A stretch of 64,000 bases of DNA from Selenomonas sp. TAMA-11512 (GTDB lineage: Bacteria; Bacillota; Negativicutes; Selenomonadales; Selenomonadaceae): assembly GCF_037076525.1 (NCBI RefSeq), contig NZ_AP029018.1, positions 1,761,001 to 1,825,000 of the forward strand. The letters run 5' to 3'. The translations under genes and the position numbers were made by a program. The notes under the pieces were generated by a model, which was not told the DNA's origin, searched no databases, and saw only the letters and a program-made list of their open reading frames with translations. Positions 6,188-35,574 of this stretch are shown here, piece after piece; the stretch's first letter is position 1, and every line of letters starts with the position of its first letter.

Positions 6188-6204
6188 AAATAAACGTTTC
6201 CTCC

Positions 6205-7107: not shown

Positions 7108-7225
7108 GTTACTCTCCCCTTTCAAATCTAATAGGGAGCACTTTCGTACTCCCTATCTATCATACCTGCAAACTTTTTCAAAAGCAAGGCGATTCGATTA
7201 AAAGTAGTTAAGGAAGAGATCTCCC

Positions 7226-8026: not shown

Positions 8027-8039
8027 GATCGTGCCCTCC

Positions 8040-9143
8040 TTACCCCAGAATCAGATGAACTAGCGCAAACGCGACGACAAAGGATGCCGCCAGTGTCCCG
8101 AAGGTATACTTCGTAAGCTTTCCCTTATCGACGGGAAGCGAACCGACCATCTTGCCGGTCTGTCCGTTCATCATAAAGGTATACGGCTTTCCCTCGTACT
8201 TCGTCGTCAAAATCCAAACGGGCGCCAGCACATACTTCACGGCATTATCCTCTTTGAGAACGGTCGTTTCACCCTCGACCTCCACATGGTCATAGCCCTC
8301 GACCGTCTCTCTGAGCTTGTCCGCCGCGCTCGTCTCCAGTCGCTCATCGGCTCGCAGGCTCGCGCGCTCCGCGTCGACATCGTACTTATCGGCAAGATAT
8401 CCCGTCATGTAGGCCGGCGTAAACGGCACGAGGTCACTGTAGTCAAACGGCTCGATGCTCTCCATGAAAGCATCGTCCATCTTTTCGCTGCCGTCGACAG
8501 GAATGCGCTCAAACTTCATCTGCCCCGTACGCATGCACTGGTAATAGCTCGTACGCGTGATGTTCTCCGTGGCTGTCGAGGTTTTCTCCGTGTTGCTCGC
8601 GCGATACGTCGCGCTCGCCTCAACGGCGGCATCGAAGAACCAGAACGGCACATACATCGGCTGAATATCCTCGACGCGGTTGTTTGCCGTAAAGGCATCG
8701 GGCAGGAGCCTCTTGCCTGCATAGAAGTCTTTGAGTGCGGCAACAGCCTCCTCTTTCGTCTTCTTGAACGGGATGACGAGGTCGGGGCGCGCCATATCTT
8801 CAAATCGGCTCGGCAGCATCGTCGGATTGCCGCAATAGCAGCACTCGGTCGCCATCGTATTCTGGTCGGCGACGATCTCCGCGCCGCAGGATGAGCAGGT
8901 AAAGGCGGTCATCATCGCCGCTTCCTCCGACCCCCATTCATCGCTTCCGCTCTTCTGCCACTTGGCTTCTTTTGCCGCCTGTGCAGCGGAAGCGGCAGCT
9001 TCCTTCTCGGCAAACATCTCCTCCATCGACTGCATATCGATTTCCGCCCCGCAGTACTCGCAGGAAACGTTGGCTGCACCCGGCTGAAACGAGAGCGGTG
9101 CGCTGCAGGAAGGGCACGTATAATTTACAGAAGTACCGGCCAT
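8040..9143 (-). CDS. TFIIB-type zinc-ribbon membrane protein (YdjG-like)
   Basis: A 367-aa protein with two zinc ribbons: CPSC/CEYC at about 10-33 and CSSC/CCYC at about 83-104. The central domain contains PMYVPFWFFDA, typical of this family, and a hydrophobic segment at the extreme C-terminus (about 345-366) anchors it in the membrane. Despite the TFIIB-type ribbon there is no sign of a transcription role. It lies between the SPFH and TPM genes in one operon, and in B. subtilis the equivalent proteins form a membrane complex, which I infer here too. The start at ATG 9143 follows GAGGTG. Confidence 0.84.
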   Translation of the reverse strand: MAGTSVNYTCPSCSAPLSFQPGAANVSCEYCGAEIDMQSMEEMFAEKEAAASAAQAAKEAKWQKSGSDEWGSEEAAMMTAFTCSSCGAEIVADQNTMATECCYCGNPTMLPSRFEDMARPDLVIPFKKTKEEAVAALKDFYAGKRLLPDAFTANNRVEDIQPMYVPFWFFDAAVEASATYRASNTEKTSTATENITRTSYYQCMRTGQMKFERIPVDGSEKMDDAFMESIEPFDYSDLVPFTPAYMTGYLADKYDVDAERASLRADERLETSAADKLRETVEGYDHVEVEGETTVLKEDNAVKYVLAPVWILTTKYEGKPYTFMMNGQTGKMVGSLPVDKGKLTKYTFGTLAASFVVAFALVHLILG

Positions 9144-9164
9144 CGTTATTCACCTCGTTCCATG

Positions 9165-10577
9165 TTAGTTGGAGACATCCTGTGCGTCAAAGACATCGCC
9201 GCATTCCGGGCAAAACTTCGGCGGATTCTTCGGATCGGGCGGATTCCAGCCGCACTTGTCACACCTGTAGAGCGGTGCGCCTGCCGGTTTGGGCTTTCCG
9301 CACTGCTGGCAGAACTTGCCCTGATTGGTCGCTCCGCACCCGCATGTCCAGCCCTCCGCCGGTGCCGGCTGCGGCTTGCCGCATTCCATGCAGAACTTGC
9401 CCGTATTGCCGGACTTGCCGCACCCGCACGTCCAACCGGCGGCTGCCGCGCCTGCCACAGCGACACCCATGCCGCCCTGCGGCGATGCCGGAGGAGGCGG
9501 CTGCGGGGGCATCTGCTGCATTTGCTGTCCCTGTGCGAAGAGATTGCCGGCGTTCATGCCGCCCATCGTACCGGCCATTCCCATGCCCATAAAGGCGCCC
9601 ATAGCGCCCATGCCGCCTTCGTTCTGCGCGGCATTCTCCATGGCTGTGCTCTGCGCGGCGGCCACGCGAGCGGCTGCCATCGTGGGATCTGTATAATTTC
9701 TCGCCTCGATCGCTCTGACTCTCGTATCGACGAGCTTGTCGACCTTCTCCTTGATGCGGGCCTCGTCCTCTTCATCCGCCTTGACCGAGGATACACCGAA
9801 GGATACGATCTCGATGCCGCGAAGCTCGCCCCACTTCTTCGAGAGCACTTCATTGAGCGCCTCAGACAATTCATAGGTATGCGCCGGCAGCTCATCGTAT
9901 CCGATCTTCATTGCGGACACCTTTGCCAGGGCCGGCTGCAGGGCATTCATGAGCTCCGACTTAAGCTGGCTGTCAATTTCATCTCGTCTGTACTCGGCTG
10001 TGACGTTTCCGCCGAGATTCGTATAGAAGAGAATCGGGTTCCTAATCTTATAGCTGTATTCACCGAAGCAGCGAATATTGACGGGGAACGAGCTCTGCAG
10101 CTCTTCCACGTAGATTTTGAAAGGCACGGGGGCCGGTGTCCCGTACTTATTCCCGATGATCTCCTTCGTGTTGACGTAGTAGACCCTCTGGTTGCGCCCC
10201 GGGTCGCCGCCATGCGTGAAGCGCTTGCCGATATCGCTGAAGACCTGCTTGATGTTGCCTGCAAGATCACCGCTTGTAAACACCGACGGCGCAAGATCCG
10301 TCTGATACGTGTACTTGCCGGGCTTGTCGCAAATATCGACAACCTGCCCGTCCTCGACGATGATCATACACTGTCCGGCGTTGACCGCGATCCCCGAACC
10401 GTTCGTGATGACGTTGTCCTCACTTGACGTATTCGAGCTGCGACCCTGACTTGACAGCTGCTTCTGCCCTCTGACCATCAGCGTGTCGGCAGGAATGCTG
10501 TCACAGTAGAAATACTCTTTCCACTGATCGGCGAGTGTTCCGCCGACAGCACCCATTGCGGCATCGATAAGACCCAT
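9165..10577 (-). CDS. SPFH-domain 'virion core' protein with C-terminal zinc ribbons (YdjI-like)
   Basis: A 470-aa cytoplasmic protein. The first 290 residues are an SPFH/band-7 type domain of the YdjI (virion core) group, including VEELQSSFPVNIRCFGEYS and a helical arm. A Gly/Met-rich linker follows. Three zinc-ribbon-like elements then occur in series (WTCGCGKSG..FCMECG, WTCGCGATN..FCQQCG, YRCDKCGW..FCPECG). The start is ATG 10577 with GGGGG nine bases upstream; the open frame continues to 10661 without a ribosome site. It is the first gene of the SPFH-ribbon-TPM operon. Likely role, by family: scaffolding at the membrane during envelope stress. Confidence 0.85.
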   Translation of the reverse strand: MGLIDAAMGAVGGTLADQWKEYFYCDSIPADTLMVRGQKQLSSQGRSSNTSSEDNVITNGSGIAVNAGQCMIIVEDGQVVDICDKPGKYTYQTDLAPSVFTSGDLAGNIKQVFSDIGKRFTHGGDPGRNQRVYYVNTKEIIGNKYGTPAPVPFKIYVEELQSSFPVNIRCFGEYSYKIRNPILFYTNLGGNVTAEYRRDEIDSQLKSELMNALQPALAKVSAMKIGYDELPAHTYELSEALNEVLSKKWGELRGIEIVSFGVSSVKADEEDEARIKEKVDKLVDTRVRAIEARNYTDPTMAAARVAAAQSTAMENAAQNEGGMGAMGAFMGMGMAGTMGGMNAGNLFAQGQQMQQMPPQPPPPASPQGGMGVAVAGAAAAGWTCGCGKSGNTGKFCMECGKPQPAPAEGWTCGCGATNQGKFCQQCGKPKPAGAPLYRCDKCGWNPPDPKNPPKFCPECGDVFDAQDVSN

Positions 10578-10689
10578 TTTCATTTCCCCCTTTATGCACT
10601 GAGACATTTTGACCATTTCATCGGTATCGGCAGGAAAAAGCCCCTTTTCCCTCGTAATCATTTCACATTAGATCACATTAGAAAATTAT

Positions 10690-10789
10690 TAACAGCTTGA
10701 AAACTGTTACCGGAGTCTTCCCTGACCCATACTTCGATTTTACTACTCCGGAATGAAAAATACACTACCCGAAATTAAAAAAAGGGTAG
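10690..10789. promoter_or_regulatory. Divergent intergenic region with several inverted repeats
   Basis: The 328-base gap between the divergent SPFH operon and the lipoprotein-regulator pair holds an AACAG/CTGTT inverted repeat (10691-10708), a CCGGAGT/ACTCCGG inverted repeat (10710-10716 and 10745-10751), and a CTACCC/GGGTAG palindrome (10765-10789) of the dispersed family. A direct repeat CACATTAGA occurs twice just before. These are candidate operator sites for the downstream LuxR-type regulator. I could not pick a convincing promoter pair. Confidence 0.4.
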
Positions 10790-10905
10790 GTCGCCGCAAA
10801 GTTTCGACACCCGAGAAGACAGTCCGAACGACGCGAATCGGTCGGATATTCCGATACGAGGCCCGTATACAAGGACCTCGACAAGCATGCGAAAAAGGAG
10901 TCCCT

Positions 10906-12249
10906 ATGAAAAAGATTCTGCTGTTTCTGTCTCTCTTTTGTCCGCTCTTCTTTACCGGTTGCTTTCACACGTCCAACCTGAATCCGAATCGTCCCGTCAC
11001 ACTTACGATGTGGCATGTCTACGGCAGTCAAAAGACATCCCCTCTCAACGATGTCATCGATGAGTTCAATCGCACCAAGGGTAAAGAAAAAGGCGTCCTT
11101 GTCAACGTCGTGTCCGTCTCGGACTCCGCCTACATTGATCAGGCTCTGACGGCATCTTTAAATAAGGCGCCGGGCGCGGCGCCGCTCCCGAATCTCTTTA
11201 CAGCCTATCCCCGCGTCTACAGCATCTTCCCGTCGGACTCCCTCCTCGCTTGGGATGACTACCTGTCAAGGGAGGATCTCGACAAGTACACGCCGGCCTT
11301 CATTGAAGAGGGTCAGTTTGACGGACACCTCTATCTTTTGCCCATTGCAAAATCGACAGATATTCTTCTATTGAACAAAACCATTTTTGACCGTTTTGCG
11401 GCAGCAAAGAACATTTCTACGGACGTGCTTCGCACATTTGAAGGCTTTTTCTCCACCGCGGAGCAGTATTATGACTGGACGCAGGGCCAGCATATGTTCC
11501 AGATCAATGACTATTACAATTACTTTCTCCTCAACACGGAAAGCGTCGGCGGGCACTTTTTCAAAGACGATAAGTTCGACCTCCACAGCGAGGCCTTCCG
11601 AAAAGTCTACATGCCTGCTGCGCACGCGATCATCTATGGCGGTCTCAGCGCTGAAAAAGGATATGCCACGGATCGCTGGAAAACCGCTGAAATCATAGGT
11701 CATCTCGGATCAACCGCCGGTATCATGTACCTTAGAGAATACGTAACGTATCGCGATAACTCACGCGAGTCCATTCATCTGATTGCACTGCCATATCCGC
11801 ATTTTTCGGGCGGGACATCTTATATTCTGCAGCGCGGCACAGGCCTCTACGCCCTCAAGAATGAGGATGAGGCGCTCAATGAAGCCGCCGCCATCTTCGG
11901 CAAGTGGATCGGCGAGCCCGCGCACAACCTTGCCTTTGTCACAAACGCCGGATACGTGCCCGTGCAGACGGCTGCCGCCGAGCAGCTCTTTCAAAACGTA
12001 GACGCGGTCGAACAGCCCAGATGCCGTACGCTTTACCACGCAATGCTGCAGATGTATCAGGAAGGAGCTCAATACATGGCACTGCCTCGTCATCCGAATC
12101 TCGAAACGATGCAGCATGCCTTTGAGCGCGATTTTCGGGAGATACTCCATCAAAAGCACCTTGCTTACATTGCCGGCGGTCGAGGCGGTGACGAAAGGAT
12201 TGAGTCGCTGGCTCTTGAGGCGCTCGCCGAGCTGCAGAAAAAATATTAG
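10906..12249 (+). CDS. Extracellular solute-binding lipoprotein
   Basis: A 447-aa lipoprotein: MKKILLFLSLFCPLFFTGC is a type II signal with Cys19 as the lipidated residue. The mature part has features of the sugar-binding family 1 (TLTMWHVYG near the start, VIDEFNRTKG, LPIAKSTDILLLNKTIF in the hinge region). ATG 10906 follows AAAAAGGAG; the frame upstream to 10753 lacks support. The stop is only 5 bases from the start of a membrane-spanning LuxR-type regulator, and no permease or ATPase gene is near. I infer that it presents a ligand to that regulator instead of feeding a transporter, which is not proven. Confidence 0.85.
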   Translation: MKKILLFLSLFCPLFFTGCFHTSNLNPNRPVTLTMWHVYGSQKTSPLNDVIDEFNRTKGKEKGVLVNVVSVSDSAYIDQALTASLNKAPGAAPLPNLFTAYPRVYSIFPSDSLLAWDDYLSREDLDKYTPAFIEEGQFDGHLYLLPIAKSTDILLLNKTIFDRFAAAKNISTDVLRTFEGFFSTAEQYYDWTQGQHMFQINDYYNYFLLNTESVGGHFFKDDKFDLHSEAFRKVYMPAAHAIIYGGLSAEKGYATDRWKTAEIIGHLGSTAGIMYLREYVTYRDNSRESIHLIALPYPHFSGGTSYILQRGTGLYALKNEDEALNEAAAIFGKWIGEPAHNLAFVTNAGYVPVQTAAAEQLFQNVDAVEQPRCRTLYHAMLQMYQEGAQYMALPRHPNLETMQHAFERDFREILHQKHLAYIAGGRGGDERIESLALEALAELQKKY

Positions 12250-12254
12250 GGTAG

Positions 12255-13946
12255 ATGCAGCCTATGTTTAACATCTTTTCCGGGGTTTCCACGTCTTTCA
12301 AAAACTGTATCGATACCATACGGCACGCTTACGGGAGCCGCAACGACTCCCTGCAGGGCCGATTCGCACAGTACATCGCGCTTCTCGTAGGCGGCATCCT
12401 GTCGATTGCCGCGCTGCTCCTTGCCCTGACGGGCTTCTTGAATCCGCTGGACCGCTCGCTCACGACCTTCATGGATCAGCATCTCGACGCGCGCCACACC
12501 GAGCACAAGCGCTTCTATGACCGGCTTGCCGCGCATGGCATCATGTTCGCCGCGGAAATCGCCAAGAATACGGAGCGCACGCTCCGCCTGCATAACGCCT
12601 CCATGCAGGATCTCAATAACAATCCGGAGCTACTTATCGCCGTGGAGGCGGCGAACTTTCCTCTGCTCGAGAGCACGGTTCAGCAGAATGCCTGCAGCGG
12701 CGCTTTCTATCTTCTCAACGCGACCATCAATCCCATAAGCACGCCGAATTATCGGACTGGTCTATATGTAAAGTACATCCATCTGCACTCGGAAAACACG
12801 CTCATGAACGAGCTCACCCTATTTCGAGGCGACTACAGCATAGCACGCGCGCATGATATCAACCTGTCTACGACTTGGCAGCCGGAGATGAATATCGACA
12901 ATCTGCCGGAGATTCAAAAGCTTCTCACATCAAGTAAGGAGAAGTATCCGAAAGAACGTGTCGAAATCACTTCTCCGCATTTCCTGGTCGATACCGATGA
13001 CTATGCACGCCACCTCATTCTTCCCATCTATGATCAAAGCGGAGAGCTGATCGGCTGCTGCGGCTATGAGATCAACAGCGCCTATTATCAGGTTCGGGAA
13101 CCGGTCACCAAATATGACGGCATCACCCTTATCAGCGGCGTTATAACCCAGCTTGATGACGGTACGTATGAAGGGCAGTTTACAAACGAGGCGGCTGTCG
13201 GAAAGTCCCCCTTAACCGCCGTGGAGGACGGAGACTATACCCTCCTGAAAAGTGAGACAAATACCTTTGTCGCGCGTATGCGTCCCATCCTCATCGGTGA
13301 AAAGCCGCTTTTCCTGGTCACGATGATACCGGAAGACACCTATCATGATCTCTCCGCATCCATGCGCTTAAAGCTTGCGCTTATCCTTGCCGTCCTCCTC
13401 CTCATCTTTGTCACGGGACATCGTTTCTTTATAAAGACGTACCTGAAGCCCTTGGCGAAGCATCTGCGCGACCTCAGAAAAGAGCGAGCCGAGGCGCTTG
13501 CAAGGTATAAGCGTACGGCGACTCGTCTCAAAGACATCAACCGTGAGCAGGAAACGCTTCAAGACCGCTATAAAGAGTTAAAGTTCGAGATAATCCGGCG
13601 AGAACGGGAGCTCGCCCTCCTGCAAGAGGAAAAAAACGCGGCGGAGAAGCAATTTGAATATGCCCGTTCCACGCTGGAGAACATCTCGAAGAAAAAATGG
13701 CTCTGCATTGACGAGAAGCTCTACCGATTCTTTCTCGATAATCTCAGCGACCTCACGCCCAAGGAGCGCGCCGTCTTTGATGCCTACGCTGACGGACTGT
13801 CCTCGAAGGAGGTCATGGACGCGCTCGGCATCACGGAAAACACCATCAAATTCCACAACAAAAACATCTACAGCAAGCTCGGTGTCAAGTCGAAAAAAGA
13901 GCTCCTGCTCTACATCGACTACCGGAAAAACCACGATAAGAGCTAA
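12255..13946 (+). CDS. Membrane-spanning sensor with C-terminal LuxR-type DNA-binding domain
   Basis: A 563-aa one-component regulator. TM1 lies at about residues 38-62 (IALLVGGILSIAALLLALTG). An extracytoplasmic sensor of some 300 residues follows, probably a Cache-like fold, then TM2 at about 374-392. A long coiled coil (about 405-475) leads to a LuxR/GerE helix-turn-helix at about 495-560, seen as LTPKERAVFDAYADGLSSKEV and ITENTIKFHNKNIYSKLGV. No kinase or receiver domain is present, so the signal must pass directly from outside to DNA. It is coupled to the solute-binding lipoprotein by a 5-base gap. Targets are unknown; the divergent SPFH operon or the paralogue array directly downstream are candidates. 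Confidence 0.85.
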   Translation: MQPMFNIFSGVSTSFKNCIDTIRHAYGSRNDSLQGRFAQYIALLVGGILSIAALLLALTGFLNPLDRSLTTFMDQHLDARHTEHKRFYDRLAAHGIMFAAEIAKNTERTLRLHNASMQDLNNNPELLIAVEAANFPLLESTVQQNACSGAFYLLNATINPISTPNYRTGLYVKYIHLHSENTLMNELTLFRGDYSIARAHDINLSTTWQPEMNIDNLPEIQKLLTSSKEKYPKERVEITSPHFLVDTDDYARHLILPIYDQSGELIGCCGYEINSAYYQVREPVTKYDGITLISGVITQLDDGTYEGQFTNEAAVGKSPLTAVEDGDYTLLKSETNTFVARMRPILIGEKPLFLVTMIPEDTYHDLSASMRLKLALILAVLLLIFVTGHRFFIKTYLKPLAKHLRDLRKERAEALARYKRTATRLKDINREQETLQDRYKELKFEIIRRERELALLQEEKNAAEKQFEYARSTLENISKKKWLCIDEKLYRFFLDNLSDLTPKERAVFDAYADGLSSKEVMDALGITENTIKFHNKNIYSKLGVKSKKELLLYIDYRKNHDKS

Positions 13947-14164
13947 TCGCTTTATGGTATGCTGATAAAATTCGATCGGCGGATTGGCGAGGATTTTGTC
14001 CCGCAGCGGAGACAACCGGATGCGGAGCGCCGCTTCATGGCGGATGCGCGGACGAAGATCGCGCGGACGCCGTGCCGGAGGTAAAGTTCTGACCTCCTCC
14101 GCGGCAGCATGCCGAAAAGAGCGCTTTGCTCACCTGACAATTACACAACGAAAGGATGAGAACG

Positions 14165-15064
14165 ATGCTATCCACCTATGCAAGGAAGTGTGCACTCATT
14201 GCGGCCGCCTTCCTCACACTCTGCACGGGCACCGCATCCGCTGCCGCCGACGCCGAGCGGCAGCTTGATACCATCGCAAACGCAGACGAGGCATGGAACG
14301 AAGTGCTCGAACACCTCGCCGACGCCGACAGCCGCTATATGCGCTTTGCCGTGCATGACAGCCCCACCCTCGACATCGCCGTCACCGACCTCGACGACAA
14401 CGGACGACTCGAGGTCATCTTCCGTACGAGCCGCGTCTCAACGGAGATCGTCGCTGACGCGGACATGATGAAAAAGCCCGACGCGTACATCCGCTCCATG
14501 GAAAACGTCGCATCCGTTCCGCTCGGTGTATACGCGTTCATATATCAGGTGACGGAGGACGGCACGCGGCTTGAGCCGGTGAAGATCGATTTGCTGAACG
14601 GCGATCGCACGGCAGATTTCCCCGACCTCATGCAGCTGAAGGAGCCGCATGAAATCAGCGCCGATATGATGGGCGCGCGCCTCTACCGCATACATACCAA
14701 GGTACGCGGAAATCCCGCAGAATACGGCGCGTCGCTCGTCCCCTTCCGGCTCCTCTACCATACAGTCCGGCTCACAGGCAACACCCTCTATTGCAGGTTG
14801 GATGCCAAAGAGGAGGGGAATTACTCCGTCTACGAGGATGGCGGCATCGAGTCCTTCGTCCGGACGGTACACATGGACGGCAGAGAGGTGTCCCGGGAGG
14901 AGTTCGGGCAGTCGTCGTTTCTCAGGGAGTTCCGCACATACCCGCCCGTGCGCGGCTCGATCAAATGGGTCAGCGGCGCGCATTTCCGCGACGAGGACTT
15001 CCGCAGCACCGTCCGCACACTCCTTGCCTCTTCATGGCAGGGATTTTCCTACGGCATACGCTAA
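14165..15064 (+). CDS. Secreted paralogue array member 1 (TDLDxNGRLE protein)
   Basis: First of seven tandem paralogues, 299 aa. The signal peptide runs to about residue 27 (ASAAA). A shared element AERQLDTIANADEAW follows, then the family hallmark VTDLDDNGRLEVIF at about 73-86, an Asp-rich loop like those that bind calcium in EF-hand or dockerin domains. The end carries the family motif LASSWQGFSYG. GAAAGGA at 14150-14156 overlaps the upstream ATG 14156, so ATG 14165 is the better start. No database family was recognised. The preceding 217 bases (13947-14164) hold no gene; an 11-base match to the MITE end (GCTGATAAAAT) lies at 13961. Confidence 0.8.
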   Translation: MLSTYARKCALIAAAFLTLCTGTASAAADAERQLDTIANADEAWNEVLEHLADADSRYMRFAVHDSPTLDIAVTDLDDNGRLEVIFRTSRVSTEIVADADMMKKPDAYIRSMENVASVPLGVYAFIYQVTEDGTRLEPVKIDLLNGDRTADFPDLMQLKEPHEISADMMGARLYRIHTKVRGNPAEYGASLVPFRLLYHTVRLTGNTLYCRLDAKEEGNYSVYEDGGIESFVRTVHMDGREVSREEFGQSSFLREFRTYPPVRGSIKWVSGAHFRDEDFRSTVRTLLASSWQGFSYGIR

Positions 15065-15076
15065 AGGAGGCACACA

Positions 15077-15892
15077 ATGCTGTTCATCTTTCTCAAAAAA
15101 GGGCTGCTGACGATGCTTGCCGCGCTTCTCCTCGGCATGAGTACATCCGCCGCCGCGCCCGACGCGGAGACGCAGCTCGACATAATCGCGAGTTCACGGG
15201 ACGTATGGAAACACGAGTCTCCCTCCCTCTCCGCAGAGAATGCGATATCCCCCCGCCTTCGGAACTTTGACCCGAGCGAGACACGTGTTGCCGTCACCGA
15301 CCTCGACGCCAACGGACGTCTTGAGCTCCTCGTCCGCCACGCGGCCCGCATGAAAGGAAATGTTCCCAAATCGTTCGCCCACCTTCCGACAGCCGTGGGT
15401 ATGTCCGTCTATGAGGTCAGCGCGGATGGGCAGCTCGTAAAGCTCACAACGAACTTCCAAGACGACTGCCCCGATCTGCTCCGTTTGGGCGGGGTCAGCG
15501 AGATTGCCCCGGACGGTACACGCCGGTACAATTTCCGCACATCGATTCTCTCGAAGGACGACTCCTATGAATTTGTCATGGCCTTCCAGCAGTTTTCTAT
15601 CGCGAACGGCAGAGTACTTTGCCGCACACTTGCCGAAGAGCACGGCATATACGGCACCTATGATGGCAAACACTTTGATTTGATGCTCCGCACGGTAAAT
15701 ATCTACGATGGCGATCCATCCCACAGGGGCATGGATATCTTCGCTTTTGCTGATACGGAGTTTTTCAAGACATTTGACAATGTACTGCAGCCGGTCGGCT
15801 CCGTGCAGTGGATGACAGGCGCGGAGTTCACGGAGAATCCCCGCGCGGCGCTTGCTTCCTCGTGGCGCGGATTTTCTTACGGCGCTCGCTAA
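15077..15892 (+). CDS. Secreted paralogue array member 2
   Basis: 271 aa. ATG 15077 lies 7 bases after AAAGGAGG and 12 bases after the stop of member 1. The signal peptide is MLFIFLKKGLLTMLAALLLG and following. It carries ETQLDIIASS, the loop VTDLDANGRLELLVR at about 72-86, VSADGQLVKL, a PDLLRL element, and the C-terminal motif LASSWRGFSYG. It is closest to members 1 and 3, from which it differs mainly in the middle part. Likely exported to the periplasm or surface; no anchor is visible. Confidence 0.8.
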   Translation: MLFIFLKKGLLTMLAALLLGMSTSAAAPDAETQLDIIASSRDVWKHESPSLSAENAISPRLRNFDPSETRVAVTDLDANGRLELLVRHAARMKGNVPKSFAHLPTAVGMSVYEVSADGQLVKLTTNFQDDCPDLLRLGGVSEIAPDGTRRYNFRTSILSKDDSYEFVMAFQQFSIANGRVLCRTLAEEHGIYGTYDGKHFDLMLRTVNIYDGDPSHRGMDIFAFADTEFFKTFDNVLQPVGSVQWMTGAEFTENPRAALASSWRGFSYGAR

Positions 15893-15905
15893 AAGGAGGT
15901 GCGCG

Positions 15906-16727
15906 ATGGAACACATTTCGCTCAAAAAAACACTGGGAACTGCCTGCGTCGCCCTCACATGCGCGGCGTCCGCCGCCGCTGCCCCCCCGTCCGCTGTCCA
16001 GATCGAGACGATCGCCGCTGCCGAAGCACTCTGGCGGGACGATGCTCTTGCGGGGCAGACCGACCGGCAGGACGGCATGGCATTTGACCCTGCCCGCACG
16101 CGCTTTGCCGTCACCGACCTCGACGGGAACGGGCGGCTCGAGCTGCTGTTTTGTCACGGTACGTGGGGCGCGGAATCCATGCATACACTCCCCGAATACC
16201 TCCAAAACATGCCGACGGCGCTCGGCATGTCCGCCTACGAAATCGGCGCGGACGGCAGTCTCATCCGCCTCCCTGCCGCAGAGTTCAGCGGCGGCACGCC
16301 GAACCTGACCACGCTGGACTCCTTCCACCCTGTTGTAAAGGACGGCATACGCCGGTACAACCTCCGCACGGAGCAGCTTCACATCGACGCAGACGGCAGA
16401 ATGCGGTGCAGCAAGCGCTATCAGCGCCTCACGCTCAAAGACGGCACACTCACGTACGAACTGCTCGCCGAGAGCTGGAGTCGCGTACGCCTCGATCCCC
16501 CCTACAACGGCGGGACGGTCGGGCTGCCCTCGCAGATCTACGACGGCGACCCTGCGCACCGCGATATGCCCAGTCAGGACTTTTCCTCGACGCGCTTTAT
16601 CCTGGACTTCAATCGGAATCACTGGGTTCCCTCCGGCATCTGCTGGATGCCCGGCGAGGAACTTCTCAAGAATCCGCGCGAGGCGCTCACGACCTCGTGG
16701 TACACCTTTGCCTACCACAGCGTATAG
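15906..16727 (+). CDS. Secreted paralogue array member 3
   Basis: 273 aa. The open frame begins at 15852, but AAAAGGAGG sits 7 bases before ATG 15906, 13 bases after member 2. The signal peptide is short with an Ala-rich end (SAAAA). VTDLDGNGRLELLFC lies at about 70-84 and IGADGSLIRL further on. The C-terminal motif is altered to LTTSWYTFAYHS. A gap of 86 bases with a TTGACA box (16766-16771) follows, so a new transcript may begin there. Confidence 0.8.
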   Translation: MEHISLKKTLGTACVALTCAASAAAAPPSAVQIETIAAAEALWRDDALAGQTDRQDGMAFDPARTRFAVTDLDGNGRLELLFCHGTWGAESMHTLPEYLQNMPTALGMSAYEIGADGSLIRLPAAEFSGGTPNLTTLDSFHPVVKDGIRRYNLRTEQLHIDADGRMRCSKRYQRLTLKDGTLTYELLAESWSRVRLDPPYNGGTVGLPSQIYDGDPAHRDMPSQDFSSTRFILDFNRNHWVPSGICWMPGEELLKNPREALTTSWYTFAYHSV

Positions 16728-16813
16728 GAAGGATAAATATAACGGAGGAGCGTCGTCCCTAACATTTGACACAGCCCCTTTGTTGTACCGGTAATTCCGA
16801 AAGGAGGCATATC

Positions 16814-17794
16814 ATGAAACGACCTTCCCTGAAACAGACCGCATGCGCCGCCCTCTCCGCGCTCACCCTCACGGCGGCGCCCGCCTGTGCCGAAATCCGC
16901 CAGGAGCCCGCCCGGGGACTTGCCGGTCTCCCCGAGCCGCAGTGCTTGGGCGGCGCACCGCTCCCCGCCGCGCTCTCCCTTTGGGCGCAGCTCGATGTGA
17001 TCACATCGTCCGGTGTCCTCGATGCGGAGCTGCGTCAGCGCAGCGCACACGAAAACGGCGAATATGAGTTCTACGTCGCCGTCACCGACCTCGACTACAA
17101 CGGCAGGCTCGAAGTCCTCATCAGCCGCCACACCCTGAGCTATGAACCGTTCGTGTATGCGGGCGAAGGGCTTTCCGACAAGGCGCGCGCGGCGCTTGCC
17201 GCACTCTGTACGGAGAACCCCGTCGCGGTAGAGAGCGCGGCGTACGAAGTCAGTGCGGACGGAACGCGCCTCGAAGAGCTCACCATCACGGGCGAGAGCG
17301 GCATCGCCCCCGACTTCACCAACTTCTACACCAAGCCGCGCACAGATGCCGGCGGCTATCTCTATCACGTCTATACGCCCCGTCTTACACCGCAGCCGAC
17401 AGAGGGCGATCCGTGGTGCTATCCGATCTCGCTCGCGACACAGACCGCGCGCCTCACCGGCGGCACCATGCACCTCGCGTGGACAGCCGAGTCCGAGGGA
17501 ACGGTCGCCATCGGGCGCGATTCCTACGAGCGGGATTTCACCTCCATGGAGATTCGTGCCACCGGGGAAACAATCGACCCGCGCCGCGTCCCCGAAGAGC
17601 TGCGCCGCCGCGACGAGGGCGAGCCGCTGCCCGTCTGTGCGGGCGAAGCCATCGCCAGGGGGCAGCGCACCAAGCTGATCGAACTGTGGTGCAACTGGAC
17701 ACATCGGCAGGACATAGTAAACTACGCACGCACAGCACCCGGTATGGGTATGGGCATGGGAAGCGCCCCGCAGCTGAGCGGAGCAAGGAGGTAG
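16814..17794 (+). CDS. Secreted paralogue array member 4 (longer, Met/Gly tail)
   Basis: 326 aa, the longest member. ATG 16814 follows AAGGAGG. After the signal peptide there is an insertion (residues about 27-52) before the common AQLDVITSSGVLDAEL element. The loop is VTDLDYNGRLEVLISR at about 89-104. The usual C-terminal SW..F.Y motif is replaced by ELWCNWTHRQD followed by a GMGMGMGS tail, so the end of the protein has diverged. The stop is 1 base from the start of member 5, so the two are translationally coupled. Confidence 0.8.
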   Translation: MKRPSLKQTACAALSALTLTAAPACAEIRQEPARGLAGLPEPQCLGGAPLPAALSLWAQLDVITSSGVLDAELRQRSAHENGEYEFYVAVTDLDYNGRLEVLISRHTLSYEPFVYAGEGLSDKARAALAALCTENPVAVESAAYEVSADGTRLEELTITGESGIAPDFTNFYTKPRTDAGGYLYHVYTPRLTPQPTEGDPWCYPISLATQTARLTGGTMHLAWTAESEGTVAIGRDSYERDFTSMEIRATGETIDPRRVPEELRRRDEGEPLPVCAGEAIARGQRTKLIELWCNWTHRQDIVNYARTAPGMGMGMGSAPQLSGARR

Positions 17795-17795
17795 C

Positions 17796-18686
17796 ATGAT
17801 GAACACAGTCAAAAAAACGATGCTCTCCGTATGCGCGGCGCTCACCGCTCTCGCGCTCGGCGTGCCCACCCACGCCGCCGCCGAGATCTTTGACCCCGCC
17901 ATACAGGCGCAGATCGACATGATCGCCGCGGATCCCGCCCTTCGGGCAGAGCTCAATACCGTTCACATCCGCAACAGCAATCCGAAGGAGGACATCACCT
18001 ATCAGGTCTATGCCGCCGTCACCGACCTCGATGCCGACGGACGGCTCGAGCTGCTCTTCTGCCGGCAGACGTTCGTCCCCGCGCGCACCGCGGGCCCCGA
18101 AAGAAATCCCGACTTGGAACCGAGAGAAGAGCTTTCCAAGCTCTTCCCCCGCCATGTCCACGGCGCGGCGTACGAAGTCAACGAGGACGGCACGCGGCTT
18201 ATGCCGTTCACCATCGTGGACGCCGCGACACATAAGTCCATCCCCTATGCGGGCGGCAGCTTCCCCGACCTCACGAGTGTCCAGCTCACCCCGCGAATCG
18301 ACGGCGATAGGCGCGTCTACCGCGCCTCCTCCTCGCGAACAACCGGCGAGAAGATGGTGGAGGGCGATAGTGTGCGCTACGGCATTGTGAGCGAGGGCTA
18401 CACCCTCGAAATTCAGGGACGCGACCTCCTCGTCTCGCGCATCGGCATGAGCACGGGAACCGCCGTCATGCAGGGCGGATTCCTCGTGCCGACCTATACA
18501 CGGAGCAAAAATCTCGTGACAGGCGCGGAGTACGCGTGGGGCGACGGCCCCTTCCTCTTTCGCAGCATAGAAGACGGCAGCCTGATCGACCCCGTTTTTT
18601 GGACAGATCTCGAGCGAAATCCGCGCGAAGCGCTTGCCGCCTCCTACTACAGCTGGACGCATAGTGGAACAATGCTCCGAGGTTAG
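17796..18686 (+). CDS. Secreted paralogue array member 5
   Basis: 296 aa. AAGGAGGT precedes two consecutive ATG codons (17796 and 17799); either can start the protein. The signal peptide ends near HAAAE. IQAQIDMIAADPALRAEL is the version of the N-terminal common element, and VTDLDADGRLELLFCR lies at about 75-90. The C-terminal motif is LAASYYSWTHS. A short MITE-like copy (18687-18718) immediately follows the stop. Confidence 0.8.
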   Translation: MMNTVKKTMLSVCAALTALALGVPTHAAAEIFDPAIQAQIDMIAADPALRAELNTVHIRNSNPKEDITYQVYAAVTDLDADGRLELLFCRQTFVPARTAGPERNPDLEPREELSKLFPRHVHGAAYEVNEDGTRLMPFTIVDAATHKSIPYAGGSFPDLTSVQLTPRIDGDRRVYRASSSRTTGEKMVEGDSVRYGIVSEGYTLEIQGRDLLVSRIGMSTGTAVMQGGFLVPTYTRSKNLVTGAEYAWGDGPFLFRSIEDGSLIDPVFWTDLERNPREALAASYYSWTHSGTMLRG

Positions 18687-18718
18687 GGAACCACGGACAT
18701 CATTTTATCAGCGATTCC
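18687..18718. mobile_element. Short MITE-like copy between array members 5 and 6
   Basis: GGAACCACGGACATC joins directly to ATTTTATCAGCGATTCC, so only the two inverted ends remain. They match the ends of the elements at 39733-39787 and 43414-43573 with a few changes. Confidence 0.55.
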
Positions 18719-18742
18719 ATGGCGCACGAAAGGAGCACAACC

Positions 18743-19621
18743 ATGACCTACCGCGTACGCAAGAAAATCATCGGCGCGGCGCTTGCCGCCCTTATACTTG
18801 CCGTGCAAGCCCCCGCTGCGGCATTGCCCGTCACCCCTGACACGGAGGCACAGCTCGATGTCATGGCAGCCTCCGGCGTGATCGAGAAGGAGCTGAAAAC
18901 ACTTGCCCGCGAAGAGGCAGACCTCCGCCGCAAGGGACAGGCGGAGCGCACCTCCTATGTGTTCTTTGCCGCCGTCACCGACCTCGACGCGGACGGACGG
19001 CTTGAGCTCCTCATCAGCCGACAGCTCCTGAGCCACGACCCGCTTGTTCGCGCGGGCGCGGGCATCTCGGAGAATGTGCGGGACGGACTCAACTACATTT
19101 CCAAAATCTATCCGAGCAAGTTTGACGGGGCGGTATACGAGATCAGCGCGGACAAGACAAAGCTCGAGCCGCGGCGCGTCGCGTATCACGGGAAGCTCGG
19201 CTTCCCCGATCTCTCGCGCATCCATGTCAAGGGACACCCTGCAGACGGCGCGCGCGTCTACCACATGAATACGCAGCGTATCATTCAGAAAAAACGATTG
19301 GCGGACTACGGGAATGCGTACGAGCTGGAGCGTGAAATAGAGAGTGCCTCCCTCGACAGAGATGTGCTCACCGTCTCCCCGGACATTGTCTGCAAGGGAA
19401 CCATCGGCTTTTGGAGAAACAGCGTCGAGCCGTACCTCACCTCCATGCGTGTGCTCACCACAGGCATGGAGTACAAGCCTTACAGCGCTGAGGCGCGGCA
19501 GCTCGAGAAAGACCGCAATGCCGGACGCCGCGTCAAATACATCTCATGGGAGGAGCTGAAAAAAGACACGCGCGCCGCCCTCTCCTCCTCCTTGTACGAC
19601 TGGACATACGAAGACCGATGA
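18743..19621 (+). CDS. Secreted paralogue array member 6
   Basis: 292 aa, starting at ATG 18743 after GAAAGGAG. The signal peptide (to about residue 27) is followed by EAQLDVMAASGVIEKEL, the loop VTDLDADGRLELLISR at about 77-92 and ISADKTKLEP. The C-terminal motif is LSSSLYDWTYE. Together with member 7 it forms the most similar pair of the array, for example in the segments DGLNYISKIYPSKFDGAVYEIS and its counterpart. Confidence 0.8.
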   Translation: MTYRVRKKIIGAALAALILAVQAPAAALPVTPDTEAQLDVMAASGVIEKELKTLAREEADLRRKGQAERTSYVFFAAVTDLDADGRLELLISRQLLSHDPLVRAGAGISENVRDGLNYISKIYPSKFDGAVYEISADKTKLEPRRVAYHGKLGFPDLSRIHVKGHPADGARVYHMNTQRIIQKKRLADYGNAYELEREIESASLDRDVLTVSPDIVCKGTIGFWRNSVEPYLTSMRVLTTGMEYKPYSAEARQLEKDRNAGRRVKYISWEELKKDTRAALSSSLYDWTYEDR

Positions 19622-19661
19622 GGACACAGGATACATGCGGCGATTCCCAAGGAGGCAGACT

Positions 19662-20546
19662 ATGAAACACAGATCTCTCAAAAAAATGCTCGGCGCGACC
19701 CTCACAGCGCTTGCCGCACTCGCGCTCACCGCAGCGCCCGCTGCGGCAAAGCCGGCTGCCCTCGCTCCCGACGCGGAGGCACAGCTCGATGTGATGGCAT
19801 CATCCGGCGTAATCGCGAAGGAGCTGAATGCCCTCTATCGCACATGGGATTTCATCCTGAACAACGGCAGCGAGGAGAGGACGCACTATGTATTCTACGC
19901 CGCCGTCACCGATCTCGACCGCAACGGACGGCTCGAGCTCCTCATCAGCCGGCATTTTCTGAATAACGATCTGCTGTACTATGCAAGTGACGATGTCTCG
20001 GAGGAGCAGTGGGACGGACTCAAATACCTCTGTGAGAACTATCCGGGCGAAATCTACGGCGCGGCATATGAGATCAGCGCGGACAAGACAAGTCTCGAGC
20101 CGCTGGAGATCAACAGCGGTGAAGAGTTTCCCGACTTCACGCGCCTCCATATCAAAGGGCGCAAGACAGACGGACACCTTATCTACTACGTCGATACGCA
20201 GCGCATGCCCCGCGATGAAAGCCGGACAAGTGCGACGGATCGCTACGACATCATCCATGAGGCGCAGACGATCTGGCTCGATGCGGGTGTAATGGGCAGC
20301 GGCACGCTGGCGCGCTCGGAGGGGACGGCTGGCGTCCACGGCGACAAGGTTGAGCCGTTCTACACCTCCATGAAGCTCATCGGTACAGATAAGGACATTG
20401 ACCCTTACGGCAAGGAAGCTGATAAATTCCGGCGCAAGTACATGGATGGCGGACGCCGCGTCAGCTTCACCGCGTGGAATGAACTCGAGCAGGACACACG
20501 CGCCGCTCTCGCCTCCTCATGGCAGGGCTGGTCATACGAGAAATAA
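19662..20546 (+). CDS. Secreted paralogue array member 7
   Basis: 294 aa, starting at ATG 19662 after AAGGAGG. The signal peptide ends near APAAAKP. It has EAQLDVMASSGVIAKELN, the loop VTDLDRNGRLELLISR at about 82-97, ISADKTSLEPL, and ends with LASSWQGWSYEK. It is the last member: a rho-independent terminator follows within 20 bases. The family has no recognised name; export and possible divalent-metal binding are the only inferences I would make. Confidence 0.8.
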   Translation: MKHRSLKKMLGATLTALAALALTAAPAAAKPAALAPDAEAQLDVMASSGVIAKELNALYRTWDFILNNGSEERTHYVFYAAVTDLDRNGRLELLISRHFLNNDLLYYASDDVSEEQWDGLKYLCENYPGEIYGAAYEISADKTSLEPLEINSGEEFPDFTRLHIKGRKTDGHLIYYVDTQRMPRDESRTSATDRYDIIHEAQTIWLDAGVMGSGTLARSEGTAGVHGDKVEPFYTSMKLIGTDKDIDPYGKEADKFRRKYMDGGRRVSFTAWNELEQDTRAALASSWQGWSYEK

Positions 20547-20831: not shown

Positions 20832-21719
20832 ATGAATCAGGAACAACTCAGACGCATGGAGCATGACAAAGGCTTTATCGCGGCGCTCGACCAGAGCGGC
20901 GGCTCTACACCGAAAGCACTCAAGGCTTACGGCGTCGACGAGAGCGCTTACAGCGGCGAGGAGGAGATGTTCACGCGCGTGCACGAGATGCGCACCCGTA
21001 TCATCAAGAGCCCGTCCTTTGACAAGCATGAGATCCTCGCGGCCATCCTCTTTGAGAACACGATGGATCGCAAGATTGACAACCTCTTCACCGCAGATTT
21101 CCTCTGGGATAAGAAGGGCATTATTCCCATCCTGAAGGTCGACAAGGGTCTCGCGGAGGAAAAGGACGGCGTACAGCTCATGAAGCCGATTCCCGACCTC
21201 GATGCCCTGCTTGATCGCGCGAACGAGCGCCACATCTTCGGCACGAAAATGCGATCCGTCATCAAACAGGCGAACGAGGGCGGCATCCGTGCAATCATCG
21301 ACCAGCAGTTTGAGATCGGCATGCAGATCGTTCGCAAGGGGCTTGTCCCCATCATTGAGCCGGAGGTAGACATCCACTGCCCCGACAAGGCAAAGGCGGA
21401 GGAGATCATGCTCGGCTGCATGAAGGAGCACCTCGCGAAGCTGTCCGCAGACGCGAAGATCATGTTCAAGGTCACCATCCCGACGGTCGACAACCTCTAC
21501 GAGGGGATTATGAAGGATCCGCATGTCGTCCGTGTCGTCGCCCTCAGCGGCGGCTACTCGCAGGATGATGCAAACGAAAAGCTCGCGCGCAACCACGGCC
21601 TTATCGCCAGCTTCTCCCGCGCTCTCGCACAAGATCTGCGTGCAAACCAGAGCGATGCCGAGTTCGACTCCGTCCTCAAGAAAGCAATCGACGGCATCTA
21701 CAAGGCGTCCATCACCTGA
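20832..21719 (+). CDS. fda: Class I fructose-bisphosphate aldolase
   Basis: A 295-aa cytoplasmic glycolytic enzyme that cleaves fructose 1,6-bisphosphate through a Schiff base. The sequence is the compact bacterial class I type: [17 protein letters not shown] at about 14-30, the ILKVDKG strand at about 98-104, IEPEVD at about 174-179, FKVTIPT near 211 with the candidate Schiff-base lysine, and ALSGGYS near 237. The length suits the family. AGGAGG lies 8-9 bases before the ATG, and a strong promoter and a terminator frame the gene as a single transcription unit. Confidence 0.93.
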
Positions 21720-21879: not shown

Positions 21880-23232
21880 TCACGAATTTCCATTTTCACC
21901 GGTCTCCTCAATTTTCCCTGTTTTAGGATTGTACCCCTCTAAAAATAGCTTTGCACCATGTGCCAACAGTAAATCCTTCTGTTCCTCCTTGTATTTTTCA
22001 CCTTCGACAGCAAGGTCATCATAAACCCTACTTAACACCGATGAGCGAATGTACCACTCATATCGCGTACAGCACATATCATCAAAATTGGTGTTGAAAT
22101 TGGGGTCGGCCCCTCTGCTCAATAAAAATTCCATAACACGCGCGTCCGGGATATAGGCCGATTCACATAGAGGAGTACATAAGCATCCAAAGCCGTACAA
22201 ATTTATATCAGCACCATGCTGAAGGAGGTAATCAACGCACTCCTTCATTCGGGATATTTTTTTCTTCCACATATCCATCGACTTTTCAGAATCGATTTCA
22301 TCCAAGCAATGATACTTGACGGCTTCAACACATTTACAGAGCGGGGTCTCTCCGTTCTGATTTATTGCCAGTACACTTGCTCCCTCTTGAATAGCATTAC
22401 GTATGACGTTTATGTCAAGGTTCGCGCAAGCATCAAATAACGGTACGTCCTTTTCCGTGAAACGATTTATCTTCTTGCCGTGGAGCAATTCCATATCCTT
22501 GAGGGAAAGTATCGTAAAATAATCTTTTATATCATCCCACCCATAAGAAATGTCTTTTAATTTGCATCTGCTCTGATTGAGCAAATTATGTGCTTTGTAA
22601 ACTTTTTCTACATCATCCGTATCGATGATGATATTCACAACGGGATCGGGAGTCATACCAAATGACAGATCTTCAATAAAAATCAACTCTTTTATTTGAT
22701 ATTCAGTGGAAACCGTATAGCCTTCGGAAACCTTTATAATTCCTGATTCTGCAATTGACTTCATAATTTCATACAATGCGGCAATCGCATCATCAGAATT
22801 TCCATTTTTGTAAACTAACTTGTTAAAGGAATCGTTTATAGGCACCCATTTCAAATCAAAGGCAGATGAATATTTACGCTTCAATACTCCTAACGACATC
22901 ACCATAACCTGCATGGCATAGTACAGCTTAAGCGATATAACGCGATTAAGAATCGATGCGTCAAAGGGAAAGTCATCATGCGTTAGGCCATAAATCTTGA
23001 TGGTTTCTCCAGGTCTGCTTATGGCTATGGGAAGATACCCGCAATTATAAGTCCTTATATCCGCATTTCGCAGACAATCATTCACGCTATAAAGATTGGA
23101 AATATTCATATCATACTGTCTCCTACAATACCATCGAGGCATGATGTTCGTTCGAAGATAAGAGCGGATATCGGCGTTACACTCTTTATCGAACTTCGCT
23201 TCACATGCAGCCTCGTCTTCGTCAAAGGACAT
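21880..23232 (-). CDS. Ankyrin-repeat protein
   Basis: A 450-aa protein without signal peptide. The N-terminal 260 residues are not recognised. The C-terminal part holds ankyrin-type repeats (about 268-430) with VPLFDACANLDINVIRNAI, ETPLCKCVEA, CVDYLLQHGADINLYG, TPLCESAYIPDARVMEFLLS and RGADPN. The gene is AT-richer than its neighbours, suggesting transfer. The ATG begins 6 bases after the stop of a broken gene on the same strand, so it was probably translated by coupling. Ankyrin proteins next to small broken genes are often effectors or immunity-type proteins, but nothing here proves that. Confidence 0.75.
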   Translation of the reverse strand: MSFDEDEAACEAKFDKECNADIRSYLRTNIMPRWYCRRQYDMNISNLYSVNDCLRNADIRTYNCGYLPIAISRPGETIKIYGLTHDDFPFDASILNRVISLKLYYAMQVMVMSLGVLKRKYSSAFDLKWVPINDSFNKLVYKNGNSDDAIAALYEIMKSIAESGIIKVSEGYTVSTEYQIKELIFIEDLSFGMTPDPVVNIIIDTDDVEKVYKAHNLLNQSRCKLKDISYGWDDIKDYFTILSLKDMELLHGKKINRFTEKDVPLFDACANLDINVIRNAIQEGASVLAINQNGETPLCKCVEAVKYHCLDEIDSEKSMDMWKKKISRMKECVDYLLQHGADINLYGFGCLCTPLCESAYIPDARVMEFLLSRGADPNFNTNFDDMCCTRYEWYIRSSVLSRVYDDLAVEGEKYKEEQKDLLLAHGAKLFLEGYNPKTGKIEETGENGNS

Positions 23233-25248: not shown

Positions 25249-28200
25249 TCACTCCCCCACTATTCCCATGAACTTCTCAAAAAAGCCCTTGAGCTTTTCG
25301 ATTACGGAGCGTTTCTTTTCTGCGCGACCGCCGCCGAAACGGCGAACGGGCGGGAGGATGGCATCGATGGCAGTGCCGGTGATCTTGAACCGCCCGTCGC
25401 GGAAGGTGCTCGCAACGAACTTCTCGGTCTCGTCGGGTTTCAGGTTCTCTTCCACGACGATGGAGGCAAGCGCCTTTTCCTTTTCCTCGGTGACGTAGGC
25501 GCGCCAGTCCTCCATGACGCGCGTATCCGTGTTGACGGTCGCGATGAAGCCGTCGATCAGCTCCTTCTTACTGCGGAGCTCGGGGCTTGCGCCGATCGCG
25601 CGGTCAATCGCGCCGATAATGCTCTTGTCCGCGCCGTTCGAGGCGTGGTACTTCTCCACAAGCATCAATATATAGTCGATGTTGATGTCCACCTGCCGAA
25701 TGAGTTCGAGTTCAAAGACGACATCGTCGTTGATGTTCTCCTTCTCCGCTTTTCCCTTCCTCGTCAGCTCATTGTATATATCCAGGTAGGCGCTCTGGTA
25801 GTCCTGCAGGTCGCGCGGCGGCAGCAGAGGATCGTCCTCCGCGAAGTCGTCAAACGCCGTGAGGATGTTGCGGAGGCGCAGGATGCTGCCGAAGATCCGC
25901 ACGAAATCCTTCTGCGCCGTCTCTCCCATGATAGGCTCGCCCACAGCGAATCGCGCGCGCAGCTCCGCGATCAGCTCCGCGTAGCCCTTGTGGTGCTGCC
26001 CCTTCTCATCGTCGTACCCGTCGTAGTAGTCACGGAATCCGCGCAGCAGCACGACGCTCTCGGCGTTTTCGTCGCCAAAGAGCGAGATCGCGTCGTCCGT
26101 CGCCTTCGCGAGGTTGCGGAACGCGACGATGTTGCCGAACGTCTTGACCGAGTTCAGAATGCGGTTCGTGCGCGAGAACGCCTGAATCAGTCCATGATAT
26201 TTCAAATTTTTGTCCACCCAGAGCGTATTGAGCGTCGTCGCGTCAAAGCCCGTGAGAAACATATTCACCACGATGAGGAGGTCGATCTCGCGCTTCTTCA
26301 TGCGCTGTGAGAGATCTTTGTAGTAGTTCTGGAACGAATCGCCGTCCGTACTGAAATTCGTGTGAAACTGCGCGTTGTAGTCCGCAATCGCATCCGCGAG
26401 GAAATCGCGGCTCGTACGGTCAAGGCTCGCCGTACCAAAATCCTCATCGGGCAGAGCTTCCTCGGGATCATCCTCGTTCGCCGCATAGCTGAAAATCGTC
26501 GCAACCGTGAGACTCCGTCCCGCCTCCTCCAGTTGTCTGCGAAATTCCTCATAGTACGCCATGCACACGGGAATCGACGCGACGGCAAACATGGAGTTAA
26601 AGCCGAGCACGCGCTGTCCCTTGAGCGAATACGCCTTGCTCCGCATCGTCTTCTGGTCGAAATGCGCGAGGATGTACTCCGTCACGGCACGGATGCGCTC
26701 GGGCGCGGCGAGCGCTTTTTCGCGGTCGATAGCGCGCACCTCCTTGTCCTCGATCTCCGCCTTGCTCTTCATCGTATTGATGTAGTCGATGCGGAATGGC
26801 AGAACATTGCCGTCATTGATCGCGTTCACAATCGTATAGGTGTGCAGCTTGTCCCCGAAGAGCTGCGGCGTCGTGCGCGCCGACGGCTTTCCCGCGCCCG
26901 CCGCGTTCGGCGCGAAGATCGGCGTCCCCGTGAAACCGAAGAGATGATATTTCTTAAATACCTTCGTGATCGCCGTGTGCATGTCGCCGAACTGCGAGCG
27001 GTGGCACTCGTCAAAAATGAAAACAATGTGCTTTTCATAGATGGTGTGCGTTCGATTCTGTCGGATGAAGTTCGCAAGTTTCTGGATCGTCGTCACCACG
27101 ATGCGCGCCGTATCATCCTTGAGCTGTCCCGCGAGCACGCGCGTCGATGTGTTGCCGTTTGCCGCACCCTTCTCGAAGCGGTCGTACTCCCTCATTGTCT
27201 GATAGTCTAGATCTTTGCGGTCGACCACGAACAGCACCTTGTCGATCTCCGGCATCGCGGAGGCGAGCTGCGCCGTCTTGAACGAGGTCAGCGTCTTGCC
27301 CGAGCCCGTCGTGTGCCAAATGTAGCCGCCGCCCTCGATGCGCCCCCACGTCTTGTAATTGGACGAAATCCTGATACGGTTGAGAATGCGCTCCGTCGCC
27401 GCGATCTGATACGGACGCATGAGCATCAGCATCTCTTCCGTGGTAAAAATAGAGTAGCGCGTAAGGATAGAGAGCAGCGTATGCCGCGCGAGGAACGTCC
27501 GCCCGAAATCCATGAGGTCGGTGATGAGACGGTTACCCGCGTCTGCCCAGTAGGACGTGAACTCGAAACTGTTGCTCGTCTTCCTGCTCGCCTTGCGTCC
27601 CGCCGCGTCCATCTCGCGGATGTGGCTCGCGCGCGTCGTGTTGGAATAGTATTTCGTATTCGTCCCGTTCGAGATCACAAAAATTTGGACATACTCATAC
27701 AGCCCCACACCCGCCCAAAAGCTGTCACGCTGATACCGCTTGATCTGGTTGAACGCCTGCCGTATCTCCACACCGCGCCGTTTCAGCTCAATATGCACGA
27801 GCGGCAGACCGTTTACGAGGATCGTCACATCATAGCGGTTCGTGTGCGCCGCCGCATTCTCGGCGAAAGCATCCGCGCCGCCCTCCATCGCATATTGATT
27901 GATGACCTGCAGGCGATTGTTGTGGATATGCTCCTTATCGATCAGTCGGATATTCTTCGTCGTACCGTCATCACGCTTGAGATTCTGAATATAGTCCGTC
28001 TGGATGCGTCGTGTCTTCTCGACGATACCATCGCTCGCGGGTGCAATCGATGTTTTGAAGAACCGCTCCCACTCCGCATCCGTGAAATCATAGTCATTCA
28101 ACGCCGAAAGCTGCGTGCGGAGATTCGCCACAAGCTCCGCCTCATCGTGAATGGGGAGATGCGCATAGCCCTCCTCTTCCAGGAGACGGATGAGCGCCCC

Positions 28201-28308: not shown

Positions 28309-28344
28309 GATGTCCCTCGTTTCTTTCAAAAATACATCTCCATC

Positions 28345-30921: not shown

Positions 30922-31045
30922 CGCTTGTAGATGTAAATAATCTATCTATTCAGGTGGATTACTAATACAACAATATGAGAGTTACAATAATTTATTATAT
31001 CAAATATTAATTTAAATAAATCGTTTACACATTTTTTAAGTATAC

Positions 31046-34950: not shown

Positions 34951-34989
34951 ATATTCAACCCCTTTTTTCACTTTAATTTTATCTCCCCC

Positions 34990-35561: not shown

Positions 35562-35574
35562 ATGAGTTCCTCCT

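Follow-up and report, generated by a model that had tools for sequence, protein, structure and literature searches.

A tandem array of seven exported paralogues with a putative calcium-binding hairpin in Selenomonas sp. TAMA-11512, and its apparent remodelling among related species

The window, a stretch of 64,000 nucleotides from Selenomonas sp. TAMA-11512 (contig NZ_AP029018.1, positions 1,761,001 to 1,825,000), contains seven tandem genes on the plus strand, extending from 14156 (or 14165, depending on the start of the first gene) to 20546. All seven were found where the first-pass annotation had placed them, and the sizes that it gave are correct, with 271–326 residues from the chosen starts and intergenic gaps of 1–86 bases. 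A Shine-Dalgarno-like AGGAG/AAAGG run lies directly 5′ of each start. The array and the gene that follows it are composed of:

14156–15064, plus strand: array member 1, 302 residues, start possibly at 14165; loop DLDDNGRLE at 14387–14413
15077–15892, plus strand: array member 2, 271 residues; loop DLDANGRLE at 15299–15325
15906–16727, plus strand: array member 3, 273 residues from the ATG at 15906; loop DLDGNGRLE at 16116–16142; part of an exchanged cassette
16814–17794, plus strand: array member 4, 326 residues, with an altered C-terminal end; loop DLDYNGRLE at 17087–17113; part of the same cassette
17796–18686, plus strand: array member 5, 296 residues; loop DLDADGRLE at 18024–18050
18743–19621, plus strand: array member 6, 292 residues; loop DLDADGRLE at 18980–19006
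19662–20546, plus strand: array member 7, 294 residues; loop DLDRNGRLE at 19911–19937; the member type found last in most related arrays, adjoining the aldolase
20832–21719, plus strand: class I-type fructose-bisphosphate aldolase, named from sequence; conserved downstream anchor of the array and not a family member

The array has a higher GC content than the window (0.61 versus 0.53), and most related arrays are likewise GC-richer than their own loci. Promoter and terminator scans gave results near chance, and no family copy beyond these seven is present in the genome, a single contig of 2,593,422 bases.

Each of the seven proteins carries the signal peptide initially noted: judged by simple patterns of hydropathy and cleavage, it has a hydrophobic stretch at its N-terminus together with AXA-type cleavage sites. 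None of them has an evident second membrane segment, and inspection of the seven starts revealed no lipobox of the kind carried by Lpl/Csa1. Their sequences thus describe what appear to be Sec-exported paralogues of one family. Because the signals are type I-like and lack a lipobox, and because the organism is a diderm Firmicute, the periplasm is the default and most likely location. This default argues against a surface antigenic repertoire, varying for host immune evasion or for adhesion to different partners as do the staphylococcal Lpl proteins. Tandem exported paralogues with mosaic evolution and the oral origin of several relatives would suit such a role, but no lipobox, sortase, SLH or other anchor is seen in the window members and their dN/dS is well below 1, which makes this reading improbable.

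The seven paralogues share only 25–47% identity (25–33% to member 1), the closest pair being members 6 and 7 with 47%. Set against this low overall identity, the conservation of a single block, AVTDLDx[ND]GRLE, appears from the alignment to be far beyond chance: it is present in all seven and identical save at the x and [ND] positions, which bears out the earlier reading of a VTDLDxNGRLELL loop with the ligand spacing of the Dx[DN]xDG type. At the DNA level, too, the loop is better conserved than any other block of the paralogues (45 nt at 83% against an average of 47%). In an alignment of 47 diverse family members, where mean column identity is 32%, the loop residues A49, D52, L53, D54, R58 and E60 are invariant, and the only near-invariant positions outside the block are Q9, Y104, E105 and S254; this alignment displays no near-invariant His or Cys and no obvious active site. 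The two other elements reported for all seven are less regular. The QLDxIA/QLDVMA element is not uniform, being QIETIA in member 3, QLDVIT in member 4 and QIDMIA in member 5, while the LASSWxGFSY-type end is clear in members 1, 2 and 7 (SWQGWSY), degenerate in members 3, 5 and 6 and absent from member 4. Nor do members 1–3 form one clade, as had been suggested: in the tree, members 2 and 3 group together (support 99/96), whereas member 1 pairs, with weak placement, with the first array gene (G159.1) of G159, a species of another genus. Members 4–7 group together (support 100/99).

In agreement with the initial view that no named family is involved, Pfam and NCBIfam searches, divergent relatives included, returned no covering family, no characterised family was found, and a PDB sequence search gave no family match. 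A scan of 84,980 species genomes recovered 28 loci, from oral Selenomonas and Centipeda, rumen Selenomonadaceae and Schwartzia, and Acidaminococcaceae, together with two Clostridiales/Lachnospiraceae proteins that carry lipoprotein-like signals. With one genome compared per species, the family is matched in 56 of 380 genomes of the class and in 5 of 398 genomes of a spread phylum sample that apparently holds no Lachnospiraceae. Ten of the 14 species of the sister genus (oral Selenomonas/Centipeda) have one to seven copies and the other four have none; one other Selenomonadaceae genus has two to five scattered copies. Searches of phage, plasmid and viral contigs for a carrier of the family gave no match. 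Within one genus of rumen Acidaminococcaceae the gene is common, but as a single copy. This occurrence suggests that it has a conserved core function for which repertoire diversity does not account; these loci share no neighbouring gene with an obvious functional implication. As read from their sequences, the rumen single-copy members (loci L013, L015–L018 and L022) adjoin a rubrerythrin-like gene (898–1467 in L017).

AlphaFold2 models were built with 47 sequences for member 7 (pLDDT 93.2, pTM 0.90) and member 2 (mec1600308b3c; pLDDT 88.7, pTM 0.87). Both models run through the same succession of elements, from two helices at the N-terminus through a long antiparallel β-meander to helices at the C-terminus. 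Members 7 and 2 thus share one predicted fold, and unrelated folds, set beforehand as the result that would speak against a single family, were not seen. When compared by Foldseek with the PDB and with viral models, neither structure gave a match at E ≤ 0.001 in these two libraries. The best TM-scores were about 0.25 and many of the matches were propeller or barrel entries; since propeller entries reach TM ≤ 0.25 against both models, the fold is not assigned to the β-propellers. The 50 top-ranking PDB fold matches for members 7 and 2 included no recognisable immunity protein, and the Csa1B structure (4big) scores a TM of 0.15 (query-normalised).

In the model of member 7, the conserved loop lies in the first hairpin of the meander, between strands 42–51 and 60–69. 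The D, D, G and later E of the Dx[DN]xDG motif are conserved; position 5 of the loop is mostly Asn, and Asp in members 5 and 6. Most likely, a structural calcium ion would sit in this loop. The published motif is mostly extracytoplasmic and is found in strand-loop-strand settings (PMC3123361), and the array loop resembles the calcium-blade hairpins of FG-GAP/integrin proteins in its Asp-x-Asp-x-(Asn/Asp)-Gly sequence, its downstream acidic residue, its strand-loop-strand context and its extracytoplasmic setting (PMC3123361). Two sub-threshold matches fall on the loop and thereby fit a calcium-blade-like hairpin: Pfam FG-GAP, whose best score on the array members is 12.7 bits against a cut-off of 22.1 (member 6, residues 84–100; E 0.12), and a cartilage acidic protein chain from the PDB sequence search (E 0.13). 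Unlike calcium-blade proteins, the array members carry a single loop each, with position 5 mostly Asn where the published motif has Asp, with an invariant Arg after the Gly and with no sign of a whole β-propeller.

In the oral Selenomonas/Centipeda genus the array sits between sucCD and the class I aldolase, both named from sequence. In three species of this genus that have no array (G158, G008 and G161), sucD and the aldolase are near neighbours, forming an empty site. In the genome of the window the aldolase follows the array in the same way, but sucC is about 85 kb away. Among the genes flanking the arrays of relatives, those with a Pfam match encode TPM, LemA, PAS-GGDEF and DUF6630 proteins. 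LemA and TPM genes both lie beside several of these arrays, but LemA is absent from this genome, and a functional link with them was rejected. The membrane-spanning regulator that the first-pass annotation saw next to the array is real, a LuxR-type membrane protein at 12255–13946, yet its link to the array is unsupported: it does not stand beside the arrays of relatives, where only its DNA-binding domain is matched, elsewhere in the genomes. As this neighbour is not conserved, a regulatory link was rejected. The flanking genes scanned, here and in relatives, included no recognisable toxin or secretion gene.

Other genes around the array were noted in passing. At 10753–13946, a solute-binding lipoprotein-type gene is followed six bases later by the membrane protein with its C-terminal LuxR-type DNA-binding domain, and the two are possibly a sensing pair. 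A minus-strand run of exported or membrane-associated genes (5351–10661) includes a TPM-domain protein (7226–8026) and an SPFH/Band 7 protein with zinc-ribbon-like CxxC repeats (9165–10661). Just downstream of the aldolase, an ankyrin-repeat protein is encoded on the minus strand (21880–23232). Further on, a minus-strand type I restriction-modification region (28708–36426) has a split hsdM, with N6_Mtase positions 2–63 in 35575–36426 and 50–310 in 30013–30921. Between the pieces lies a low-GC (0.30–0.34) Gabija pair, GajA at 32785–34971 and GajB at 31046–32785, both on the minus strand, and a short stretch near 35560 reads as a KilA-N-like remnant. Two consecutive half-size HsdS reading frames (227 and 225 residues; 28708–30016, minus strand) replace a single full-length HsdS and accompany HsdR at 25249–28329.

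Comparison of the array with that of G159 reveals a segment of unusual similarity:

about 15925–17800, plus strand: two-gene cassette of members 3 and 4, mostly 82–100% identical per 50 nt to G159, with flanks at 28–78%

Members 3 and 4 are 94–96% identical in DNA to their G159 counterparts, with dS values of 0.106 and 0.060, against 0.78 for the aldolase and 0.88 for member 1, whose 64% identical orthologue opens the G159 array. Such values point to a recent exchange of the cassette between genera. A right end at the loop of member 5 was considered, as the blastn alignment ran to 18060, and was rejected: the 50-nt profile drops at about 17800, so that the cassette ends near the gene ends and not at the loop. 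Between other species, many array pairs similarly have a dS of 0.10–0.18 against 0.43–1.05 for housekeeping genes, exceptions including FOBRC6.3/OT892.4 (0.41) and infelix.1/OT892.2 (0.56).

In the tree, the members of each array fall in different clades, indicating that most duplications predate the species, and in most arrays the final gene comes from one and the same clade. Several genes of relatives are mosaic. FOBRC6.2 resembles OT892.2 up to about residue 75 and OT892.3 thereafter; it is 85–97% identical to the former over the first 80 codons and 82–100% identical to the latter from codon 52 almost to the end. Because FOBRC6 has one gene fewer, fusion by deletion is the simplest reading. 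In massiliensis.3, a start resembling periodontii.3 is fused to a body resembling G159.7, itself a mosaic gene; for all three genes the mosaic statistics were reached in none of 20,000 permutations. The breakpoints coincide with the conserved loop or fall slightly 5′ of it, and the DNA of the loop is the most conserved of the seven paralogues. This agreement is only suggestive of a role in recombination because clear independent chimeras are so few; the conservation of the loop DNA may simply follow that of the protein. In G167, one copy is frameshifted and split across two frames. With copy numbers of zero to seven and mosaic genes among relatives, the locus has the features of a recombining tandem array.

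The set had been proposed to be under diversifying pressure. Selection was assessed by gene-wide pairwise dN/dS alone and, in the sense of dN/dS > 1, the proposal failed: values are 0.14–0.53 in 13 orthologue pairs, against 0.06–0.15 for the flanking enzymes. The array genes are under relaxed purifying selection, with no gene-wide positive selection. The set is diversified instead by exchange between species and recombination within genes. Purifying selection, single-copy conservation in the rumen genus and the recurrence of TPM and LemA beside oral arrays could each be accommodated by a conserved structural or stress-related periplasmic protein serving envelope maintenance, duplicated in oral species for dosage, with mosaics and exchange as by-products of tandem repeats in naturally recombining populations. 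We consider this unlikely, as the paralogues within the array have diverged further than copies kept for dosage would, and the set of neighbours varies, LemA being missing here.

Exported location, interspecies exchange, empty sites and the frameshifted copy all fit a different role, protection against competing oral bacteria: each protein would counter a different one of their periplasm-acting toxins, and the array would expand and mix in step with changes in those toxins. The immunity genes esaG and tipC offer a precedent, since their strings of non-identical paralogues vary by recombination at conserved blocks (PMC9484751). The flanks devoid of recognised toxin and secretion genes, the common single-copy members of the rumen genus and the lack of Pfam matches to immunity families all weigh against it; given the first two, an immunity or decoy repertoire is retained as a rival of low probability and not as the main claim.

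Conserved export, a conserved loop of metal-binding type, the lack of a recognisable set of catalytic residues and a repertoire that is shuffled together favour binding proteins whose variety matters. We therefore put at about one in two the probability that the array encodes an unnamed family of calcium-stabilised extracytoplasmic binding proteins with a repertoire reshuffled by recombination. The proteins would be exported via Sec, most likely to the periplasm, where a structural calcium would staple the β-hairpin loop Dx[DN]x[ND]GxxE, and they would most likely bind a protein or envelope ligand rather than catalyse a reaction. In oral Selenomonas/Centipeda relatives, homologous recombination remodels the array at its fixed site beside the aldolase: whole-gene cassettes move between species, and neighbouring paralogues fuse in frame, at the loop or slightly 5′ of it, so that each species has a repertoire of its own. 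The benefit of the array may lie in this diversity. More speculatively, and with low probability, the proteins may represent an undescribed fold and family that serves diderm Firmicutes as a recombining set of periplasmic recognition proteins, the variable face of each calcium-stapled β-sheet binding its own toxin or ligand, with cassettes exchanged between oral species. In either case, this is a defined unnamed family with a confident model and no PDB match, in bacteria of the human mouth, and the empty sites and natural chimeras make both its function and the role of recombination directly testable.

The evolutionary pattern of the array matches that reported for the esaG, tipC and lpl strings (PMC9484751). 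Like the lpl cluster of S. aureus (νSaα; Csa1), it consists of tandem exported paralogues with copy-number variation (PMC9484751), and recombination in lpl is summarised in PMC9484751 as acting on a conserved central segment of about 130 nt. Unlike Lpl proteins, which are lipoproteins encoded on a genomic island of a monoderm, the array proteins bear soluble type I-like signals and are encoded at a chromosomal site beside the aldolase, and they have no Pfam match to the Lpl/Csa1 family. Like the type VII secretion immunity strings esaG and tipC, the array consists of non-identical paralogues that expand, contract and form mosaics by way of conserved blocks (PMC9484751); it differs from them in that the scan of flanking genes revealed no recognisable toxin or secretion gene, and neither Pfam nor NCBIfam matches its members to EsaG/TipC-type immunity families. 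The array behaves as do the best-studied Gram-positive gene strings that evolve by shuffling, although its host is a Firmicute with an outer membrane and it has no known partner.
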